Shown: positions 16,246 to 26,787 of the stretch, one piece after another
How positions within the stretch are numbered: position 1 is the stretch's first letter
Layout: each line of letters begins with the position of its first letter
Assembly: GCA_947503785.1 (NCBI GenBank)
Contig: CANNFB010000005.1
Coordinates: 1 to 64,000 of the forward strand
Direction: 5' to 3'
Source: an uncultured Campylobacterales bacterium
GTDB taxonomy: Bacteria; Campylobacterota; Campylobacteria; Campylobacterales; Arcobacteraceae
DNA: 64,000 bases
The notes under the pieces: model-generated
The model's database searches: none
Told to the model about the DNA's origin: nothing
The model's input: the letters and a program-made list of their open reading frames with translations, nothing else
Translations under genes and position numbers: made by a program

Positions 16246-17079
16246 TTATTTTACAATTTGATGTAATTTCGAACATTTACTCAGGAATGTATCCATTCCA
16301 CACATATCATTATACATATCATCAAAAGAGTGGAAATGTGCATCATAAACATAAACAAAGATTTCATCACCTTTTTCTAAGTAGTTAGTCTTTCCAAACT
16401 CTGCATAAGCTGTGGCACCTGCTGCGATTAAAATACCTTTAGCTTCTTTAGCATTTTTAGTAAATTGTGTTAACTCTTCTAATGGCCCACAATCTTCTTG
16501 AGTATTTAATTTTTTTATCATCCATTCTTTTAATTGATTAAAAAAGTAACTGTATGATTTTACAGATGAAGTCATTCCATAATCATGTACGATACCATCT
16601 CTTTTTATAAATGAAGCAATATGATATTTACTTAAAATACCATCTTCTGTAAAATTATCAATTTCTATTAACTCTTGAGAAATACCTTTTGTATTATTTC
16701 CCCAGTTTTTCTTTGTACTTAACTTATTTCCATCTTGAATTCTAATTGAACAATCATTAAAGGCTGAGAAATATTTAGGAATTATATCAATAAATTTTCC
16801 CTCTTCATATACAAAATCACATATCAAAGCAACTTCAGCTTCTACTTGTAAATTCTCAGCTTCTCTTCCATGTGTAAGTATAGTTTCATCACAAAGAGGA
16901 TAATTTCCTAAAAAACTATCATGCTCTTTTATATAAAAAGGAAACATTCCTTTTGGCGCATCTTTTTCTTCTGTTTTAATTACATCAAATTCATCTGCTT
17001 CTCCAGCTTCACCTAAGTGATTTGCAAAGTTTCCTGCAACTGCAAAGCCTAAATAATCTTTTAAATCTTCAATTATCAT
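16246..17079 (-). CDS. FAH-like protein, DUF5718 type
   Basis: The 277-residue soluble protein resembles the fumarylacetoacetate hydrolase fold, with sequences such as EAEVALICDF and LIAAGATAYAEFGKTNYLEKGDEI, the latter like the conserved late FAH motif around a GT/GxGxF strand. I associate it with the uncharacterised DUF5718 group seen in Campylobacterota. The substrate is unknown. It stands alone, upstream of mscL on the same strand and downstream of the fumarase gene but beyond its terminator. Confidence 0.6.
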   Translation of the reverse strand: MIIEDLKDYLGFAVAGNFANHLGEAGEADEFDVIKTEEKDAPKGMFPFYIKEHDSFLGNYPLCDETILTHGREAENLQVEAEVALICDFVYEEGKFIDIIPKYFSAFNDCSIRIQDGNKLSTKKNWGNNTKGISQELIEIDNFTEDGILSKYHIASFIKRDGIVHDYGMTSSVKSYSYFFNQLKEWMIKKLNTQEDCGPLEELTQFTKNAKEAKGILIAAGATAYAEFGKTNYLEKGDEIFVYVYDAHFHSFDDMYNDMCGMDTFLSKCSKLHQIVK

Positions 17080-17236: not shown

Positions 17237-18730
17237 TTAAATAGTTCTCCATTTAGCAGGACCTGTTGTATGAATTGAAACACCTTCTGTATCAACAGCA
17301 ACAGTAACAGGCATATCAACTACATCGAATTCATAAATAGCTTCCATTCCCATTTCAGGAAATGCAAGAACTTTTGAATCTTTAATTGATTGAGAAATTA
17401 AATAAGCAGCTCCACCAGTTGCAATTAAATACATAGATTTGTATTCTTTAATTAAATCAATTGTAGGTTGCTTTCTTTCAGCCTTACCAATCATTCCCAT
17501 GATACCAATTTCCATCATATCTTTAGTGAATTTATCCATTCTTGTAGATGTAGTTGGTCCCGCAGGTCCTACTTTTTCATCACGAACTGGATCAACTGGT
17601 CCAACGTAGTAAATAAATCTATCTTTTAAATCTACACCATTTGGAAGTGGCTTACCAGCATTTTTGTACTCAACAATTTTTTTATGAGCAGCATCACGTG
17701 CAGTTAAAATTTTTCCAGTTAATAATAAAGTATCACCTGATTTAAATTGAGACAAGTTTTCTTTTGTTAAGTCTGCAATATTTACTTTTTTAATTGAATC
17801 TAATGGTAATTCAATATCTGGCCATATATCTAAATCTGGTTTTTTAAATTTAGCTACACCTTCTCCCGCTTTTAATTTAAAGTGAATATGTCTAGTAGCT
17901 GCACAGTTTGGAATCATAGCAACTGGTAATGAAGCTGCATGACATGGATAATCTAAAATCTTAACATCAACAACAGTAGTTAAGCCACCAAGTCCTTGAG
18001 CTCCAATTCCGATTTTATTAATATCAGTATAAAGTCTTAATCTTAATTCTTCTAAAGCATTTTGAGGACCTCTTGCTTGAAGCTCATGAATATCAACATG
18101 ACCCATTAAAGATTCTTTTGCTAAAAGCATAGATTTTTCAGGATTTCCACCAATACCAATACCTAAGATTCCAGGAGGACACCAACCAGCACCCATTTCT
18201 CTTACGTTTGCCATAACCCAGTCATAAACTGAATCAGATGGATTTAATACTGCGAATTTAGATTTATTTTCACTTCCACCACCTTTAGCAGCAACAGTAA
18301 TATCTAATTCATCTGAATTATCAACCGTTACATGAATAACAGCTGGAGTATTATCTTTTGTATTTGTTCTTGCACCTGCTGGGTCTGAAACTACAGAGTA
18401 TCTTAAAGTATTATCTGGATTAGTATAACCTTTTGCTACACCTGCATTTAATACATCAGTTAATTCTCTTGTAATTTCTAAATTACACTTTAACCCAACT
18501 CTAACAAAAATATTAACACTTCCTGTATCTTGACATAAAGGTCTATGTCCTAAGGCACACATTTTAGAGTTAATTAATATTTGACCTAATGCATTTTTAG
18601 CAGCTTCTGATTGCTCGTTTTCATAAGCTTCAACTATTGATTTTACAAAATCTTCAGGGTGAAAATATGAAATATATTGACATGCATCTGCAATACTATC
18701 TATAATATCTTGTTCTGTAATTACGCTCAT
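17237..18730 (-). CDS. fumA: Class I iron-sulfur fumarase (possible mesaconase activity)
   Basis: The 497-residue protein is a single-chain class I fumarate hydratase, with the alpha and beta domains of two-subunit enzymes fused. Three cysteines at C66 (PLCQDTG), C184 (GWCPPG) and C276 (PNCAATRH) have the spacing of the 4Fe-4S ligands in known class I fumarases. The C-terminal domain includes GPAGPTTSTRMD. It converts fumarate to malate in the TCA cycle. Class I fumarases are also known to hydrate mesaconate to citramalate, which is relevant because a mesaconyl-CoA module lies 2.3 kb away on the same strand. It is oxygen-sensitive by nature. It is separately transcribed and has its own terminator. 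Confidence 0.93.
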   Translation of the reverse strand: MSVITEQDIIDSIADACQYISYFHPEDFVKSIVEAYENEQSEAAKNALGQILINSKMCALGHRPLCQDTGSVNIFVRVGLKCNLEITRELTDVLNAGVAKGYTNPDNTLRYSVVSDPAGARTNTKDNTPAVIHVTVDNSDELDITVAAKGGGSENKSKFAVLNPSDSVYDWVMANVREMGAGWCPPGILGIGIGGNPEKSMLLAKESLMGHVDIHELQARGPQNALEELRLRLYTDINKIGIGAQGLGGLTTVVDVKILDYPCHAASLPVAMIPNCAATRHIHFKLKAGEGVAKFKKPDLDIWPDIELPLDSIKKVNIADLTKENLSQFKSGDTLLLTGKILTARDAAHKKIVEYKNAGKPLPNGVDLKDRFIYYVGPVDPVRDEKVGPAGPTTSTRMDKFTKDMMEIGIMGMIGKAERKQPTIDLIKEYKSMYLIATGGAAYLISQSIKDSKVLAFPEMGMEAIYEFDVVDMPVTVAVDTEGVSIHTTGPAKWRTI

Positions 18731-18948: not shown

Positions 18949-20865
18949 TTATTCTTCCTTTTGAGGTAATTTAATTATTGTTAATGCGCCTTCATAAGTT
19001 GTATCTTTATATTTATACTTACAGTTTTCCATATATATATTACCATTAAACTGTTTTTCAATAATTTCTTTTGACATGTATAATCCTATTCCAGTACCTT
19101 TGTCTTTACTCTTAGTTGTAAAGTATGGATCAAAAACATGTTCCAAAATCTCTTTTGGCACTCCTCCTGCATTATCTTTTATTTTAATATATATTGTATT
19201 TTTATCTTTGTAAATATGAATATGAATAATTCTATTAAGTGCTTCATCTTTTATTAATTCATCTCTTGAGTTATTTAGAATATTTATAAATACTTGCGTT
19301 AATTGGCTTTTTATTCCAATTGTTTTTATATGTTGAATATCTTTTTCTATAGTAATATTTTTATTTTTATATTGAATACCTATAATATTTATAGCGTTCT
19401 CAAATGCATCTTCAAGAGAAAATATTATCTTTTCTTTATCATTTGAAAAAAAGTTCCTAAAATCATCTATTGTTCGGGATAAATATTGTGTGGAGTTATT
19501 TATATACTCAAGACCTTCATTAAACTCTTCATCACTTAACTCTCCAAACTCTTTTTTAATTTTCAATCCTGTTGCAGATGTAGAAATAATGCTTAGAGGT
19601 TGTCTCCATTGATGGCCAATATTTGCAATCATTTCACCAATTGCAGCCATTTTTGATTGCTGAGATAAAATATTTTGTTGTTTTGTAAGCTCTAATAAAT
19701 TTGTTTTTATTTCATCTTGGTAGTCTTTAAATCTTCTTTCTAGTAATTTTGATATATAAATAGAAATAAATAGTAAAATACTTGTTAAAACTAAAGTACT
19801 AATTATTAAGTTGTTTAAATCTTCTTTAAGCCGTGTATCTAAGATAGCTTTTTTTTCTAAAACAATTTTATTTATTTCATTTTCGTAAAAACCTTTTCCT
19901 ATAATCCATTCCCAGTTTTTTATGCCTTTTAAATAACTCGTTTTCTTTTCTGGTAAATCAACAGTTGAATTTTTTACTTGTGAATAAGTTCCAAATGCAT
20001 CTTTTTTATTTTTTGCTATTTCTATAGATTTATGAAACTCTTTATTGTTTTTTGTTTCTTTTGTTTTGTATATGTTAAGGCCAATAATATCTTTTCTAAT
20101 ATGGCTTAAAAAATAACCTTCATAATTTAAAACAAATATATAGCCATTCTTTGAATATGTAAAATTTTGTATATGTTCTAAGACATCTTTTTTTATATCA
20201 TTTTCAAAATCATCTATATATTCACCTGTTCCTATAAACCAATCATATGGTTCAAAATGTTTATTAAACCCAAGTTTCTCATACTGATTGTTCATATCTG
20301 ATGGTTTATGATACCACCATCTCATATAATCCTCTTTTTTTTCTTTTACAACTTTTATAATATTTCTAGTTAGGTATTCCCCTTTACCTTCTTTAAAATT
20401 ATAAAAGTTTTTTCCCTCGATTTTTTTATTAATTGGCAATAAGATACATTCATAATCAAAAGAATATATAAAAAAGTATCCCCGTCCATTATTAAATCGT
20501 ATAGTACGAATGGCATCTTTTATCATCTTTTGTACTATTTTCTTATCTAAGTGCTTATTCTCTTCATAAATGTTCATTGCAATTTTATGTGCAGAATAAA
20601 CCTTCTCTTTTAAATTTTCTTTTAATTTATTTTCTGTGTTTTTTTGTTGCTTAATTATATATTTATATATGCTATTAACTTGATTTTTTATAAGCTCTTT
20701 ATTACTTTCTATATGCTCTATTTCTATTAGTTTTTTTTCTTTATTAAATATTTTTTTATTATTAATATATAAAGAAAAAGATATAAGTATTGACATCGTT
20801 ATAATAAATAAAGGTGGTGTATATTTAATTATTTGTAATATAAAAGATTCATGTTTACTATTCAT
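18949..20865 (-). CDS. Cache-domain sensor histidine kinase (paralogue 1)
   Basis: The 638-residue kinase has an N-terminal membrane helix (about 14-31), a periplasmic sensor with two Cache-like modules (motifs GRGYFFIY and EGKNFYNF in the first, KNGYIFVLNYEGYFL in the second), a second membrane helix (about 350-370), a short coiled coil, an H-box (GHQWRQPLSIIS) and an HATPase domain (DNAGGVPKEIL, then GTGIGLYMSKEII). It probably senses a small extracellular carboxylate or similar ligand. No response regulator is adjacent, so its partner is encoded elsewhere. It is clearly paralogous to the kinase at 50899-52788. Confidence 0.92.
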   Translation of the reverse strand: MNSKHESFILQIIKYTPPLFIITMSILISFSLYINNKKIFNKEKKLIEIEHIESNKELIKNQVNSIYKYIIKQQKNTENKLKENLKEKVYSAHKIAMNIYEENKHLDKKIVQKMIKDAIRTIRFNNGRGYFFIYSFDYECILLPINKKIEGKNFYNFKEGKGEYLTRNIIKVVKEKKEDYMRWWYHKPSDMNNQYEKLGFNKHFEPYDWFIGTGEYIDDFENDIKKDVLEHIQNFTYSKNGYIFVLNYEGYFLSHIRKDIIGLNIYKTKETKNNKEFHKSIEIAKNKKDAFGTYSQVKNSTVDLPEKKTSYLKGIKNWEWIIGKGFYENEINKIVLEKKAILDTRLKEDLNNLIISTLVLTSILLFISIYISKLLERRFKDYQDEIKTNLLELTKQQNILSQQSKMAAIGEMIANIGHQWRQPLSIISTSATGLKIKKEFGELSDEEFNEGLEYINNSTQYLSRTIDDFRNFFSNDKEKIIFSLEDAFENAINIIGIQYKNKNITIEKDIQHIKTIGIKSQLTQVFINILNNSRDELIKDEALNRIIHIHIYKDKNTIYIKIKDNAGGVPKEILEHVFDPYFTTKSKDKGTGIGLYMSKEIIEKQFNGNIYMENCKYKYKDTTYEGALTIIKLPQKEE

Positions 20866-21005: not shown

Positions 21006-21992
21006 TTATTTAGAGAAAAATCTTTCTTGAACTATATCTTGTAGTTTTGTTCCAGAGAAGTTTGCTCTTTGAACTAATTCCCAGAAGTATCTGTAAGTTG
21101 CTCTGTCATGTAACTCACCATCATACTGAATAGGTCCCCATTCAGCATCTTGTGCTGCAATTAAAATATTTTGTGCAGCTTCTAATTCTGTAAAGTCTGG
21201 TTTCATTGCATCAACAATAGCTTGCACTTGTGTTGGATAAATTGACCACATTCTTAAGAACCCAAACTCGTTTCTTGCTTTTTCAGCATCTTTAAAAGTT
21301 TGGTATGGGTTTTTTAAATCAAGTGTAACATTGTGACAAGGAATGATATGGTTTTGTAAAGCTGCCTGAACAACTTTTGCTTTAGCAGCAGCAATTAATC
21401 TATGATCAAATTGACCAGGAGATCTCATATTTGATGCTGGAATTGCACCTTGGTAACCAGAAACAAAGTCCATTAAACCAAAGTCAAGAACTTGTACCCA
21501 TGGTAAAGTTGCAGTTTTTTCAACATCCATTAAAGCACCATGTGTTTCAATTAAAACGTGAATTGGGATTTCTCTAGAAATACCAGCTTTTTTTGCAGCA
21601 GCTTGAATATATTCAACTTGAGTTTTAGCATCTTCATAAGAAGTTGATTTAGGAATAGTAATGTATGCTAATTTTTCACCAGCACCCGGTACTAAAATAT
21701 CAATATCTTGTCTCCAGTCAGCATGATCAAAATCATGAATTCTTGTTCCTGCCATTGCATACTTATTAGCTTCAGAGTTTACAACTCTAACAATCATTTC
21801 AGCATGCTCAACTTCTTTACCAGTTTCAGCTCCATCTTCACAATCACAAGTGATATCAAAAACAGGTCCAAGCTTTTCTTGCATAGAAAAACCTTTTAAA
21901 ATTAACTTTTCGCTTCCTGCAAAGTGCTCACAAGATGGAATAATTGGTAAATTGTCTCCAGAACCGAATAGTGCTACGTTAGGGTGTGTCAT
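21006..21992 (-). CDS. CitE-type malyl-CoA / beta-methylmalyl-CoA lyase-like protein
   Basis: The 328-residue protein belongs to the HpcH/HpaI-CitE family of magnesium-dependent CoA-ester lyases. It shows the conserved CEDGAETGKEVEHAEMIVR segment, TIPKSTS, IETHGAL (metal-binding glutamate) and a late PCHNVTLD motif. It most resembles lyases that cleave or form malyl-CoA and beta-methylmalyl-CoA (glyoxylate plus acetyl- or propionyl-CoA). It is the last gene of a four-gene operon and lies directly after the mesaconyl-CoA-hydratase-like gene, whose product would be beta-methylmalyl-CoA. Citramalyl-CoA lyase activity cannot be excluded from sequence. Confidence 0.8.
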   Translation of the reverse strand: MTHPNVALFGSGDNLPIIPSCEHFAGSEKLILKGFSMQEKLGPVFDITCDCEDGAETGKEVEHAEMIVRVVNSEANKYAMAGTRIHDFDHADWRQDIDILVPGAGEKLAYITIPKSTSYEDAKTQVEYIQAAAKKAGISREIPIHVLIETHGALMDVEKTATLPWVQVLDFGLMDFVSGYQGAIPASNMRSPGQFDHRLIAAAKAKVVQAALQNHIIPCHNVTLDLKNPYQTFKDAEKARNEFGFLRMWSIYPTQVQAIVDAMKPDFTELEAAQNILIAAQDAEWGPIQYDGELHDRATYRYFWELVQRANFSGTKLQDIVQERFFSK

Positions 21993-22040: not shown

Positions 22041-23111
22041 TTATTTTGCTGTTTTTCTTTTAGGAATAACAACTGTATAATCTAAATCAAGTACTACATT
22101 TTTTAAGTACTTACCGTCTTCACCTTTGGGATTAGATATCTCATCGGACTTTTGATTAGTAACAGCAACTGTTCTTAATCTTAATAATCCAATATCTTCT
22201 CTTTTATGGTCAATCGTTTCAATAACTTCTGTGTATGCATAAATTGTATCACCAGCATAAGTAGGGTTAGCGTGAGCTCCACTATTTATTGCGTAGATCC
22301 ATTGTGCATTTTGGAAGCCATTAAATGATAATGCTCTTGCCATTGAAATAACAATTCCACCATACATAAGTCTTTGACCCATTGGTGAACTTTTCATCAT
22401 ATGGTCATTGAAATGTACTTTTGCATTGTTTTGGTATAACTTAGTTGCTAGTGTATGATCACTATTATCAACTGTAATACCTTCTGGATGATTTAATCTC
22501 TCACCAGCTTCGTAATCTTCAAAGAAGTATTTTCCACCAGTTGAATTTGTGTCTACACACTTAATTTCTGGAAGATTAATAATATCAGCAATAGGTGTAG
22601 TTTTTAAGAAAGTAGGAACTTCATTTATACCTGATTTAGTTTCCTTGTCTTTCTTATGAACCATAACCCATCTTTTGAAGTTTAATACTTCTTTATTATC
22701 CTGGTTATATCCAATAGAGTGTACATAAACAACTCCACTTTTACCACTTGAATTTTCTTTTAATCCAATTACAGTAGATGTCATAGATACCGTATCTCCA
22801 ACATAAGTAGGATTAGGGAATGAAATCTCTGCGTAACCTAAGTTAGCAATTGCATTTAAAGATACATCTTGAACAGATTTTCCAAATGTTAAGTGAAACA
22901 TTAATGTATCATCAACTGGTCTTTTATCATAACCCATTTCAGCAGCAACTAAATCTGAAGAGTTAAGTGCAAATCTAGAACCAGTAAAAGCGATGTATAA
23001 AGATACATCTCCTTCACTAATTGTTCTAGGAAGTGGGTGAACTATTTTTTGACCAATTGAAAAATCTTCGAAAAAATTTCCCACATTGATTTTAGAGTTA
23101 ATTTTAGACAA
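22041..23111 (-). CDS. Mesaconyl-CoA hydratase-like protein (double MaoC/hot-dog)
   Basis: The 356-residue protein carries two MaoC-type hot-dog domains. The first contains FEDFSIGQKIVHPLPRTI and a conserved NPTYVGDTV; the second contains FEDYEAGERLNHPEG and ANPTYAGDTIYAYTEV. This layout matches mesaconyl-CoA (C1) hydratase, which adds water reversibly to give beta-methylmalyl-CoA in the ethylmalonyl-CoA and methylaspartate routes. Clustering with CitE-type lyases supports the call. Start chosen at the ATG ten bases after the upstream gene. An itaconyl- or mesaconyl-C4-CoA hydratase role is the main alternative. Confidence 0.8.
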   Translation of the reverse strand: MSKINSKINVGNFFEDFSIGQKIVHPLPRTISEGDVSLYIAFTGSRFALNSSDLVAAEMGYDKRPVDDTLMFHLTFGKSVQDVSLNAIANLGYAEISFPNPTYVGDTVSMTSTVIGLKENSSGKSGVVYVHSIGYNQDNKEVLNFKRWVMVHKKDKETKSGINEVPTFLKTTPIADIINLPEIKCVDTNSTGGKYFFEDYEAGERLNHPEGITVDNSDHTLATKLYQNNAKVHFNDHMMKSSPMGQRLMYGGIVISMARALSFNGFQNAQWIYAINSGAHANPTYAGDTIYAYTEVIETIDHKREDIGLLRLRTVAVTNQKSDEISNPKGEDGKYLKNVVLDLDYTVVIPKRKTAK

Positions 23112-23121
23112 TATAATCTCC

Positions 23122-25641
23122 TTATTTATTAAATAGGTTTTGACCTAATGATTTATATGTTTCGTATAGTGTAATCATCTTTTTAGCCCATTTAATTCTA
23201 GAACCATCAACTAATCTATCATTATGATAAATTACTTCTTTTCCATCTTTCTTAGCTTCTTCATATTTGTTAATCATAACTTCATAATCTTCAACTTCAA
23301 CTTGTTTTGGAGTAAAGATATCATTAATGTATTCAATTTGAATTGGATGAACTAATGATTTACCATCAAATCCTAAGTTAAACGCATCTTTAGTTGAATC
23401 TTCACAAGCAAACTCATCATGGATATCAAAGTGAGGACCATCAATAACTGTTTGACCATACGCTTTTGCAGCAAGTGCAATTTGCGATAAATAGTTAAAC
23501 ATTGCTTTTGAACCTTTTTTAATATCAATTTGAAGTCTATTTGCAAGTTTATTAGAACCAACAACAACAACTTCAACTTTAGGAGATGCTGAACAAATTT
23601 CTTGAATATTTAAAACTGATAATGGTGTTTCAATCATAATCATTAAAGATAAATCAGGATTTACTTCTTCAATTAATTTAACAGCTTCTAAAACCTGAGC
23701 TCCAGTTTCAATTTTTGAGAATACTAAACCATCAATTTCAATTTCTTTAGCTAATTCTAAATCTTTTACAATGTCTTCACTACCTAAGTTATTAATTCTT
23801 AGAATTCGCTCAGAGTCACCAAATTTAGAGCCACTGTCTTTATAAACATCTCTAATAGTATCTCTAGCAACACTTCTTTGTTCTGATAAAATAGCTTCTA
23901 AATCAAAGATAACTGAATCTGCTAAAACAGTTTTTGCTTTTTCAACATTATGTCTATTATAAGCAGGTACAAATAACATAGATCTTCTAGCTTTATACTC
24001 TTTAATTTCTTCACCAGTTTCTTTTGCATGGTAAATATCATGTAAGTTTTTAACTAATTGCTTTCTTAAAACTTTTCCATTTTTAGTTCTTGGATAATCT
24101 TTAAGTGCAAAAATTGTTTTAGGTGCTTTATATTTTGCAAGGTTTGCTTGAGAAAATGCTAACACTTCTGCTTCTTGTTCAGCAGTTAACTCTTCATGTC
24201 CAATTACAGCAATTGCAACAATTACTTTATCTTTTCCAATTTCTAAACCAAAAGCAACACAATCAGCTACTAAATCGTGAGTTTTTACAACTCTCTCAAT
24301 TTCATGTGGAGATACTCTAAATCCGAATGTATTAATAATATCATCTTTTCTACCAATGAACCAGATATAACCATCTTCATCTCTTTTAGCATAATCACCT
24401 GTAAAGAAGTAACCATTATGTTTAGCTTTTCTAGTTTCTTCTTCTAATTGCCAGTATTCTAAGAATAATCCTGGATCATCTTCACCAATAGAAATCATAC
24501 CTTCTTCACCATCTGCTACTTCTTCTAATGTATCAGGATCAAGTAGTTTTACAGTATGTCCAGGTTGTACAAATCCTGCACTTCCAGGTCTAATTGGATT
24601 GTTTTTAGAGTGAGAAATATAGTAAGAACACTCACTCATTCCAATAGCTTCATAAATATCTTGCTTAAATCTATCTCTCCATAAACTAATCATTTCATCA
24701 GATAAATGCTCACCAGCAGACATACAATATCTTAAAGATGGACAATCCGCAGATGTATATTCAGTTTTTTGAATAATTTGTCTATAGATTGTAGGTACTC
24801 CAATAAAGATAGTACATTTATGTTTTTTAATTAATTCAATCCATTTCCCAGCATCATTACCACCTTCATAGGCAATAACTGTATGACCGTTAAATAATGG
24901 ATCCATAAGTGCAGAACCTAATACATAAGTCCAGTTAAATTTACCAGAATGCATGATTCTGTCATTTTCTTTAAAATCAAACCAATATTCAGTAGCTGGA
25001 GTTCTTCCAACTAATGATCTATGTGAGTGTAATACACCTTTTGGATAACCAGTAGTTCCTGATGTATATACTAAATAAGCAGGTTCTCCTGATCTTGATT
25101 TATAATGGTTTGGTTTTTTATCTGCAGTTTTTAATATTTCAGAGAAAGAATATACATTCATTCCTTTTGGAATATTTAAACCATCAGTAGAATCAATTCC
25201 AGCAACAATAATAGTTTTTAAGTTATCAAGATTTTCTAAGTAAGGTAGTAAATTATCATACATAGTTGCAGATAATACAATAGCATTTGCTTGTGAATCT
25301 TCTGCTAAATACTTAACTTCTGAACCTGATAATAATGTTGAAGTAGGTACTGCAATAATACCAGCTTTAATTGCTCCAAAAAATGAAATAGGGTAAGCAA
25401 GAGAGTTTTTTAAACATACTAAAACTCTATCTCTTGGCTCAAATCCTAAACCAGTTAAGAAGTTACACATTTGATCAGATTTTTCTGTTAATTCTTTATA
25501 AGAAATTTCGTCAGTACCTAAATTATCATCTTCTATAATCATAGCAGTACTATTTTCTTTTGCTGTTCCTACATGTTTAGATGTACAAGCAACACCAATG
25601 TTTAAGTATTCTGGTACTTCAATTGTAATATTTGAACTCAT
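23122..25641 (-). CDS. Fusion of AMP-forming acyl-CoA ligase and CitE-type lyase domain
   Basis: The 839-residue protein has two modules. Residues 1 to about 545 form an acyl-CoA synthetase: YTSGTTGYPKG at 191-201, the YEAIGMSE-type motif at 330-337, GYFFTGD at 410-416 and the catalytic lysine K523 in RTKNGKVLRK. Residues ~552-839 form a complete CitE-like lyase opening with RRSMLFVPAYNRHNVEKA. In this second module the usual LEDA signature reads DLEAIL (580-585), so the Asp after the Glu is replaced by Ala, while the R615-I-N617 and MIMIETPLS motifs remain. The neighbours suggest a dicarboxylic C4 or C5 acid (mesaconate, citramalate, malate) is activated and its CoA ester passed to the lyase domain. 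The fusion reads through with no frameshift. Substrate unknown. Confidence 0.85.
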   Translation of the reverse strand: MSSNITIEVPEYLNIGVACTSKHVGTAKENSTAMIIEDDNLGTDEISYKELTEKSDQMCNFLTGLGFEPRDRVLVCLKNSLAYPISFFGAIKAGIIAVPTSTLLSGSEVKYLAEDSQANAIVLSATMYDNLLPYLENLDNLKTIIVAGIDSTDGLNIPKGMNVYSFSEILKTADKKPNHYKSRSGEPAYLVYTSGTTGYPKGVLHSHRSLVGRTPATEYWFDFKENDRIMHSGKFNWTYVLGSALMDPLFNGHTVIAYEGGNDAGKWIELIKKHKCTIFIGVPTIYRQIIQKTEYTSADCPSLRYCMSAGEHLSDEMISLWRDRFKQDIYEAIGMSECSYYISHSKNNPIRPGSAGFVQPGHTVKLLDPDTLEEVADGEEGMISIGEDDPGLFLEYWQLEEETRKAKHNGYFFTGDYAKRDEDGYIWFIGRKDDIINTFGFRVSPHEIERVVKTHDLVADCVAFGLEIGKDKVIVAIAVIGHEELTAEQEAEVLAFSQANLAKYKAPKTIFALKDYPRTKNGKVLRKQLVKNLHDIYHAKETGEEIKEYKARRSMLFVPAYNRHNVEKAKTVLADSVIFDLEAILSEQRSVARDTIRDVYKDSGSKFGDSERILRINNLGSEDIVKDLELAKEIEIDGLVFSKIETGAQVLEAVKLIEEVNPDLSLMIMIETPLSVLNIQEICSASPKVEVVVVGSNKLANRLQIDIKKGSKAMFNYLSQIALAAKAYGQTVIDGPHFDIHDEFACEDSTKDAFNLGFDGKSLVHPIQIEYINDIFTPKQVEVEDYEVMINKYEEAKKDGKEVIYHNDRLVDGSRIKWAKKMITLYETYKSLGQNLFNK

Positions 25642-25656
25642 TGTTATAACTCCTTA

Positions 25657-26787
25657 TTAAATTTGACCAAATGGCCAGTTTTCTTTAAATGTATGTATAG
25701 GCATTTTGTTAAGAACCGATAATGCAAATATTTCATCTTCTTTATTTAAACTTCTAAGTGCATAAGCTCTTAAAATATTTTGTAAAGCTTTACCAAACAT
25801 TGGTGGATCTAACATCTCACCTTTATATCTAATAGCTCCAGATAATAAAGCATCAGTTTCAATTGCAAGTTTTAATACAGTTACATCATGCTCTAATTCT
25901 TTTGGACTTGGAGTAAATGCAACTTTACATACATTAATATGATTTGGAGTAATAACTTGCTTTCCAGTTAATCCCATTGCATTTTCTCTTAGTGCGTGAG
26001 CATAAACATGTCTAGATGCTTCATCTCCATGTAAATCTAACCATCTTCTAATGTCTTTTTTCTCAACACAGTGATCTGGTAGTGAGTGTGGTGTTAACAT
26101 AACTTCAACTCCACCAATAACTCCAGCACCTTTAACTCTAGCTTCCATTGTAAGCATATTAAAGAATGTTTCTAACTCATCAATCCAACCTTCTGGCGTG
26201 ATTTTATAAGCCATTGCTTTAGAGAAATCATGAATACCAAAAACAACATGTTTAACAGTTGAATGTTCCATTAATCTATCAGCAATTTGAAGAGACTTTG
26301 GATGCTCAATAATTGGTTGAATAGTTAAATTACTTCCAATAGATACTAACCAAGAAGATAAATCTCTTATCTCAGCAGAACCATAAACTTCTCCAGCTTT
26401 TGCTAAAACAATTACATCAATGTATTTATGAATTTGCTTTAACATTTTTAAATCTTCTTCATACTCATCTGTTCTAAATGGATTTATTCTCACTGCTATT
26501 TGGAAAGTTCTTTCAGGAAACTTTGGAAGTTCTTGAATTAATAATTCTCTTGACATAGCTTTTTGTCTACAACCATCTTCTAAATCGAATAATACAGTAT
26601 GTGCTTTAGTTTTATAAGCATGTTTTTGTAATCTTAATTTAGCTTGCTCCATACTTTCGTATGTACCATCAAGTGGATTGAATTTAATTGGTGGGTAATA
26701 AATTTGAATACCAGGCCAGTATCCACCAAGAACCGGTGTTAAATCATCGTTTGCTGTTAATTTTGATAAATCTATTGCAGAAGTCAT
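25657..26787 (-). CDS. Second CitE-type CoA-ester lyase-like protein
   Basis: The 376-residue protein is another HpcH/HpaI-CitE family member, with FDLEDGCRQKAMSRELL (canonical LEDG), RINPFRTDE, IIEHPKSLQIADRLM and ITPNHINVCKVAFTPS. It is distinct in sequence from the lyase at 21006. It is the first gene of the operon, followed 15 bases later by the ligase-lyase fusion. Candidate roles are malyl-CoA or citramalyl-CoA lyase or, as in haloarchaea, a CitE-like malyl-CoA thioesterase; sequence alone does not decide. Confidence 0.78.
   Translation of the reverse strand: MTSAIDLSKLTANDDLTPVLGGYWPGIQIYYPPIKFNPLDGTYESMEQAKLRLQKHAYKTKAHTVLFDLEDGCRQKAMSRELLIQELPKFPERTFQIAVRINPFRTDEYEEDLKMLKQIHKYIDVIVLAKAGEVYGSAEIRDLSSWLVSIGSNLTIQPIIEHPKSLQIADRLMEHSTVKHVVFGIHDFSKAMAYKITPEGWIDELETFFNMLTMEARVKGAGVIGGVEVMLTPHSLPDHCVEKKDIRRWLDLHGDEASRHVYAHALRENAMGLTGKQVITPNHINVCKVAFTPSPKELEHDVTVLKLAIETDALLSGAIRYKGEMLDPPMFGKALQNILRAYALRSLNKEDEIFALSVLNKMPIHTFKENWPFGQI

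Follow-up and report, generated by a model that had tools for sequence, protein, structure and literature searches.

We found that a 64,000-nucleotide stretch of an Arcobacteraceae genome (the window; GenBank assembly GCA_947503785.1, contig CANNFB010000005.1) encodes an AMP-forming acyl-CoA ligase fused to a CitE-type domain that has lost its metal site, within a gene set strictly linked to methylcitrate cycle genes. Judging from sequence and gene context, there is an even chance that the fusion serves as the CoA ligase that activates a C5 dicarboxylate, probably mesaconate, in a proposed citramalate-methylcitrate cycle. Both the fusion and an idea for a similar pathway had already been published in 2007: the available sections of the A. 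butzleri genome paper (PMC2147049) describe a cluster, AB1917-AB1921, in which AB1918 is a fusion of CaiC and CitE domains, and suggest a pathway linking glyoxylate and propionyl-CoA with pyruvate and acetyl-CoA. Gene set and fusion, as described in those sections, are the same as in the window. What we add is the degeneration of the metal site, a most likely single origin of the fusion and a strict methylcitrate linkage across phyla, none of which is mentioned in those sections, where the other direction is favoured. No later work on the AB1917-AB1921 pathway was found in the literature searched, to which most subscription journals do not belong. The gene context is more interesting than the fusion itself. 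Through the strict methylcitrate linkage, one concrete pathway can now be tested in Arcobacteraceae and methylotrophs that grow in culture.

The 839-amino-acid frame lies at 23122-25641 on the minus strand and begins with an ATG preceded by AAGGAG; strand, coordinates and length all agreed with a preliminary description of this DNA, which had reported a single intact ligase-CitE frame. The ligase is N-terminal and the CitE-type domain C-terminal, with Pfam matches to AMP-binding (PF00501, residues 30-397), AMP-binding_C (PF13193, 447-523) and HpcH_HpaI (PF03328, 553-766). The features of ANL acyl-CoA ligases were present: YTSGTTG from Y192, the hinge region G430-R431 and the C-terminal catalytic K523. 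This lysine, also pointed out in the preliminary description, lies in TKNGK523 and is invariant across 24 aligned fusions. The positions of domains and key residues are:

24028-25641, minus strand: AMP-forming acyl-CoA ligase domain, aa 1-538 (PF00501/PF13193)
24073-24075, minus strand: K523, ligase catalytic lysine, invariant in aligned fusions
23122-24006, minus strand: CitE-like domain, aa 546-839, metal site dismantled (PF03328; AF2 model; Foldseek)
23893-23904, minus strand: D580-L-E-A583, LED Asp deleted (33/33 fused relatives)
23629-23631, minus strand: E671, remaining Mg2+-ligand Glu (kept in 31/33)
23548-23550, minus strand: K698, replacing the Mg2+-ligand Asp (Asp gone in 33/33)
23206-23208, minus strand: D812, retained lid Asp (33/33)

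The fusion is neither an assembly artefact nor a chance join, because it was found full-length in 26 of the 37 sampled Arcobacteraceae genomes (66-100% identity, the window's genome counted) and also in Sulfurospirillaceae and some Gammaproteobacteria. The closest named genome was that of Poseidonibacter ostreae (96% for the fusion). In a maximum-likelihood tree, fused and split (stand-alone) CitE-like domains formed one clade (100/99), and the fused sequences formed a single clade (100/100) beside split genes of Kangiella and Thalassotalea, in which the ligase and the CitE-like protein (CitE_f) are encoded by neighbouring genes in the same order as in the fusion. Because the fused forms group in this way beside adjacent genes in the same order, a single fusion event between neighbouring module genes is the most likely origin. 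Its occurrence in both Campylobacterota and some Gammaproteobacteria suggests horizontal transfer. Against a joint function, the preliminary description had weighed the case of the two halves being separate genes with other functions in relatives; they are separate in many relatives, yet inside the same gene set, and this supports a shared pathway. AlphaFold modelled the complete fusion at moderate quality (pLDDT 70.5, pTM 0.47), too low for a domain arrangement to be inferred. In a Halioglobus genome, a ligase orthologue was found in one 1039-aa open frame (L075:7471-10590) with a mannitol-dehydrogenase-like protein, which is either another fusion or a misjoined frame, and an acetyl-CoA hydrolase/transferase-family gene adjoins it. 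Halioglobus relatives of the ligase sit beside genes of that family and not beside the full module.

Catalytic residues were counted in an alignment of 33 fused domains, 39 split relatives, 59 CitE1 and 72 CitE3 proteins, for which CLYBL, the malyl-CoA lyase of R. sphaeroides, RipC and the CitE of D. radiodurans served as references. The Asp of the LED motif was absent from all 33 fused domains, where it falls in an alignment gap, while the LED Glu was kept in 33/33. The preliminary description had noted the altered motif as an Asp-to-Ala substitution. The Asp is indeed gone, but a deletion fits better than a substitution, since the fusions (DLE-AILxEQRxxAR) have one residue fewer in the loop that follows LE than the split relatives (DLEDPVLPEHKTEAR). 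Furthermore, the Asp that serves as Mg2+ ligand was lost in 33/33 fusions (Lys in 25, Thr in 4, Asn in 3 and Gln in 1), so that GGEDF in CLYBL corresponds to GSNK698L in the window's fusion. This second loss was missed in the preliminary description, which thus caught half of the change; its statement that the Arg-Asn and Glu motifs persist was borne out by D580-L-E582, R615 and N617. The Mg2+-ligand Glu was kept in 31 of the 33 fusions and lost in 2, and the lid Asp and the substrate Arg were each present in 33/33. All scored acidic catalytic residues, Arg and Lys were intact in CitE1 (59/59) and CitE3 (72/72). Split relatives had a lid Glu (36/39) or Gln (3/39) and mostly kept the metal-ligand Asp (35/39). 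The AF2 model of the CitE-like domain (pLDDT 92, pTM 0.88) retained the TIM barrel with the C-terminal lid, and its best Foldseek matches were malyl-CoA lyase 4l9y and CLYBL (TM 0.79-0.87).

In the CitE-like superfamily, the LED Asp and the metal-ligand Asp are reported to be absolutely conserved, and every characterised enzyme, thioesterase included, to require Mg2+ or Mn2+ (PMC3832036, Zarzycki and Kerfeld). Neither the Glu-Asp metal pair nor the LED Glu-Asp pair of a Mg2+-dependent lyase is complete in any fused domain (Asp 0/33 in both). Because both Asp residues have been lost, the fused domain is very unlikely to act as a metal-dependent lyase or as a normal malyl-CoA thioesterase. The preliminary description had the fused domain cleave or hydrolyse the CoA ester that the ligase produces. 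The fold, the CoA-region residues, R615, E582 and lid D812 have all been kept, and the ancestor looks thioesterase-like by its lid Glu, but the loss in 33/33 fusions of two residues described as absolutely conserved makes activation plus cleavage by one protein distinctly unlikely. Cleavage probably falls to the two CitE proteins that the operon encodes separately. The only cluster for which the same paper reports a lid Asp-to-Glu change is that of the malyl-CoA thioesterase from R. sphaeroides. The split relatives share this change, whereas the fused form differs from that cluster in having a lid Asp (33/33) and no metal-ligand Asp. The thioesterase idea therefore suits the stand-alone ancestral form rather than the fused one: judged by residue state, the ancestor of the fused domain looks thioesterase-like, since its stand-alone relatives have a lid Glu (36/39) together with the metal Asp (35/39).

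The fused domain is probably a CoA-ester-binding or assembly domain. In malyl-CoA lyases, each active site is completed by the lid of an adjacent subunit (PMC3832036), and the retained lid Asp of the fusion could complete the site of a neighbouring lyase subunit in the same way. The fused form has the lid Asp without the metal site and the split form has the opposite, so that the fusion might assemble with CitE1 or CitE3 into a heteromer; it might just as well only bind CoA esters or act as a scaffold. It would clearly exemplify a metal-dependent lyase/thioesterase fold whose metal site was dismantled in a ligase-fused lineage.

The fusion lies in a tight minus-strand run of CitE3, fusion, MaoC hydratase and CitE1, spaced by 15, 10 and 48 bp; Shine-Dalgarno-like sequences precede the starts. 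The neighbouring genes are:

25657-26787, minus strand: CitE3, intact CitE-type lyase, candidate citramalyl-CoA lyase/synthase (PF03328), 15 bp upstream of the fusion
22041-23111, minus strand: MaoC-type hydratase of the mesaconyl-CoA hydratase family (PF19315 MC_hydratase), 10 bp downstream of the fusion
21006-21992, minus strand: CitE1, intact CitE-type lyase, candidate beta-methylmalyl-/malyl-CoA lyase (PF03328)
17237-18730, minus strand: class I fumarase, candidate mesaconase (PF05681/PF05683)

The MaoC hydratase scored 84.6 bits against PF19315 (cut-off 26.5), and no NCBIfam equivalog cut-off was reached by CitE1, CitE3 or MaoC. Class I fumarases can hydrate mesaconate (PMC4682846), and in Methylophilaceae the class I fumarase gene adjoins the ligase gene. 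A second, class II fumarase was considered as a sign that the class I enzyme is a dedicated mesaconase. This held in some relatives (G009, G011, G022, G060, G061, G063 and G067) and failed in the window's genome, which has no class II fumarase above the cut-off, so that its class I enzyme may simply be its fumarase. Two PDB entries deposited as (putative) citrate lyase, 3qqw and 3r4i, are close relatives of CitE1 and might accordingly be beta-methylmalyl- or malyl-CoA lyases. The genes for CitE1 and the class I fumarase are separated by that for a sensor histidine kinase (18949-20865), where the examined relatives have only about 50-1000 bp, and a DUF5718 protein (16246-17079) is encoded downstream of the fumarase.

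CitE3, ligase, CitE_f, MaoC and CitE1 make up a module that occurs as a conserved set in both Campylobacterota and Pseudomonadota. In Methylophilaceae and relatives it occurs in two nearby gene blocks. In OM43 strain LSUCC0665, which has a 1.3-Mb genome, one strand carries citE_f-maoC-citE1-prpB-prpC-prpD at intergenic distances of -4 to 17 bp, and the other carries the GntR gene that separates the two blocks, the sdh genes and citE3-lig-fum, the latter downstream of sdhAB after a 204-bp gap; PrpB, PrpC and PrpD of this strain exceed the curated cut-offs. This shared gene run is the strongest evidence for the methylcitrate link. In addition, prpB-prpC-acnD-prpF of the window's own genome were above the curated cut-offs, and PrpB and PrpC were found together in all 19 module-bearing genomes checked. 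Among 249 sampled Campylobacterota, CitE1 was present in 13, and a PrpC-type synthase in 13/13 of these compared to 44/236 without the module (Fisher 1.5e-9). Close PrpC relatives (at least 76% identity) were found in 11 of the 13 CitE1 carriers and 1 of the 236 others; such co-occurrence p-values overstate independence, because the sampled genomes are related. Some genomes, such as G013, have the methylcitrate cycle without the module.

A homologous set has been described in Methylophilaceae as a 'methylcitric acid cycle' cluster (prpCBD, cyl1, maoC, cyl2, gntR, mdh, sdhABCD, cyl3, prpE and fum; PMC4109929, PMC3728764), in which the ligase and the third CitE are separate, unfused genes. The cluster was highly expressed in situ, and its role and metabolite were called unknown (PMC3728764). 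In OM43 strain NB0046, an HpcH transcript rose from 101 under nutrient-deplete conditions to 1,055 with DOM and a CoA-ligase transcript from 104 to 1,045, about tenfold in each case, and the methylcitrate genes were likewise up in the DOM treatment (PMC5120137). By their names and adjacency, these two transcripts would be those of CitE3 and the ligase.

The nearest solved structures to the ligase domain were benzoate-, anthranilate- and 4-hydroxybutyrate-CoA ligases and MatB. Four residues, R213, H231, K292 and H312, were specific to the family: they were conserved in 80-81 of 81 members and missing from two outgroups (benzoate- and 4-hydroxybutyrate-CoA ligases). Without being proof, these basic residues suggest an acidic substrate. 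The prpE listed between cyl3 and fum in Methylophilaceae (PMC4109929) occupies the position of the ligase, which, with the linkage to prpBCD, might point to a propionate-CoA ligase that feeds the methylcitrate cycle, with a separate function for the CitE and MaoC genes. However, the ligase scored 215 bits against TIGR02188 (acetate-CoA ligase; cut-off 725), no PrpE-named model was among its best 25 model matches, and its nearest solved relatives are those given above and not PrpE. Since the family-specific Arg213, His231 and His312 suggest an acidic substrate and a propionate-CoA ligase would leave MaoC, three CitE proteins and the fumarase without a role, this assignment is quite improbable. 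The preliminary description had proposed that a dicarboxylic acid is activated. This part of it gains support from the operon, which, with its mesaconyl-CoA hydratase-type MaoC, two intact CitE lyases and class I fumarase, would best be fitted by a branched-dicarboxylate ligase.

The substrates and direction of the following cycle are inferred. Candidate genes were present for the citramalate-cycle lyase, the mesaconase-type fumarase, mesaconate activation, the mesaconyl-CoA hydratase and the beta-methylmalyl-CoA lyase. CitE3 would join acetyl-CoA and pyruvate to citramalyl-CoA, which would be hydrolysed to citramalate; among the genes of fusion-bearing genomes, none was identified as a separate thioesterase for citramalyl-CoA or malyl-CoA. 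The class I fumarase would dehydrate citramalate to mesaconate, the fused ligase would activate it to mesaconyl-CoA, MaoC would hydrate this to beta-methylmalyl-CoA, and CitE1 would cleave the product to glyoxylate and propionyl-CoA. PrpC, AcnD/PrpD and PrpB would then turn propionyl-CoA and oxaloacetate into succinate and regenerate pyruvate. The net conversion of acetyl-CoA and oxaloacetate to glyoxylate and succinate would equal that of the isocitrate lyase shunt, at the additional cost of ATP spent to AMP. Malate synthase matched in only one of the 19 module genomes, and glyoxylate could re-enter as malate via a CitE enzyme with malate-synthase-like activity. The gene set could thus give bacteria that carry the methylcitrate cycle an alternative to the glyoxylate shunt. 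A bolder reading, less likely than not, is that Arcobacteraceae, OM43, other methylotrophs and marine Gammaproteobacteria possess a complete glyoxylate shunt free of isocitrate lyase and B12. In one lineage, the ligase would then have acquired a one-time CoA-thioesterase that has since lost its metal site and now acts in assembly, completing the active site of a partner lyase.

The citramalate cycle has so far been a proposal for purple bacteria. In Rhodospirillum rubrum (PMC8307300) it likewise leads from pyruvate and acetyl-CoA through citramalate, mesaconate, mesaconyl-CoA and methylmalyl-CoA to glyoxylate and propionyl-CoA, but there a CoA transferase activates mesaconate and propionyl-CoA is carboxylated to succinyl-CoA, whereas here an AMP-forming ligase and the methylcitrate cycle would take these parts. 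The return route from propionyl-CoA would be provided by PrpB and PrpC. The haloarchaeal methylaspartate cycle (PMC5592240) shares the mesaconyl-CoA hydratase and beta-methylmalyl-CoA lyase steps but draws mesaconate from glutamate.

The same gene content would also allow the reverse run, in which propionyl-CoA and glyoxylate are disposed of as pyruvate and acetyl-CoA and the ligase activates citramalate. This is the direction of the 3-hydroxypropionate bi-cycle and is close to the one favoured in the available sections of the A. butzleri paper (PMC2147049), which argue from growth on malate, fumarate, lactate and pyruvate and not on acetate or propionate. We consider it unlikely, as PrpBCD of the same OM43 gene run also consumes propionyl-CoA, so that the two arms would compete, and no glyoxylate source was seen alongside the module. 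We favour the forward direction, in which the module would supply the substrate of PrpC and take up the product of PrpB. Another use of the same enzyme types is the scavenging of external C5 dicarboxylates (itaconate, mesaconate and citramalate), with the ligase in place of the usual CoA transferase. The enzyme types match those of itaconate degradation, and there were weak matches to RipB/Ich and RipC/Ccl; these fell far below the cut-offs (106 vs 340 for RipB and 39-50 vs 375 for RipC), and no RipA-type gene was seen next to the module. Retention beside sdh and prp in 1.3-Mb genomes of obligate methylotrophs suggests central metabolism instead, which makes scavenging highly improbable.

Several known routes were also checked and set aside. 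The glyoxylate shunt proper was rejected on the absence of isocitrate lyase from all 19 module genomes, where PF00463 matches were partial and all on prpB-type genes, and of malate synthase from 18. Ethylmalonyl-CoA or methylmalonyl-CoA routes were rejected as an ScpA-type mutase matched in two of the 19 and had no match in 17. Citryl-CoA-type ATP-dependent citrate cleavage by the fusion would leave MaoC without a role, and the CitE-like domain has no metal site. For the methylaspartate cycle, methylaspartate ammonia-lyase was above the cut-off in none of 10 module genomes, and glutamate mutase was found in 8 of 20 genomes and absent from 12 (11 of the 19 with the module). The glutamate mutase E subunit occurred in most module-bearing Arcobacteraceae tested and in one Sulfurospirillaceae. 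In the window's genome, a row of genes at L116:6593-11526 (contig C1, ~144592-149525) encodes mutase S and E subunits, a MutL-like protein, an AMP-binding ligase and a 113-aa ORF, and is possibly a biosynthetic cluster that uses 3-methylaspartate.
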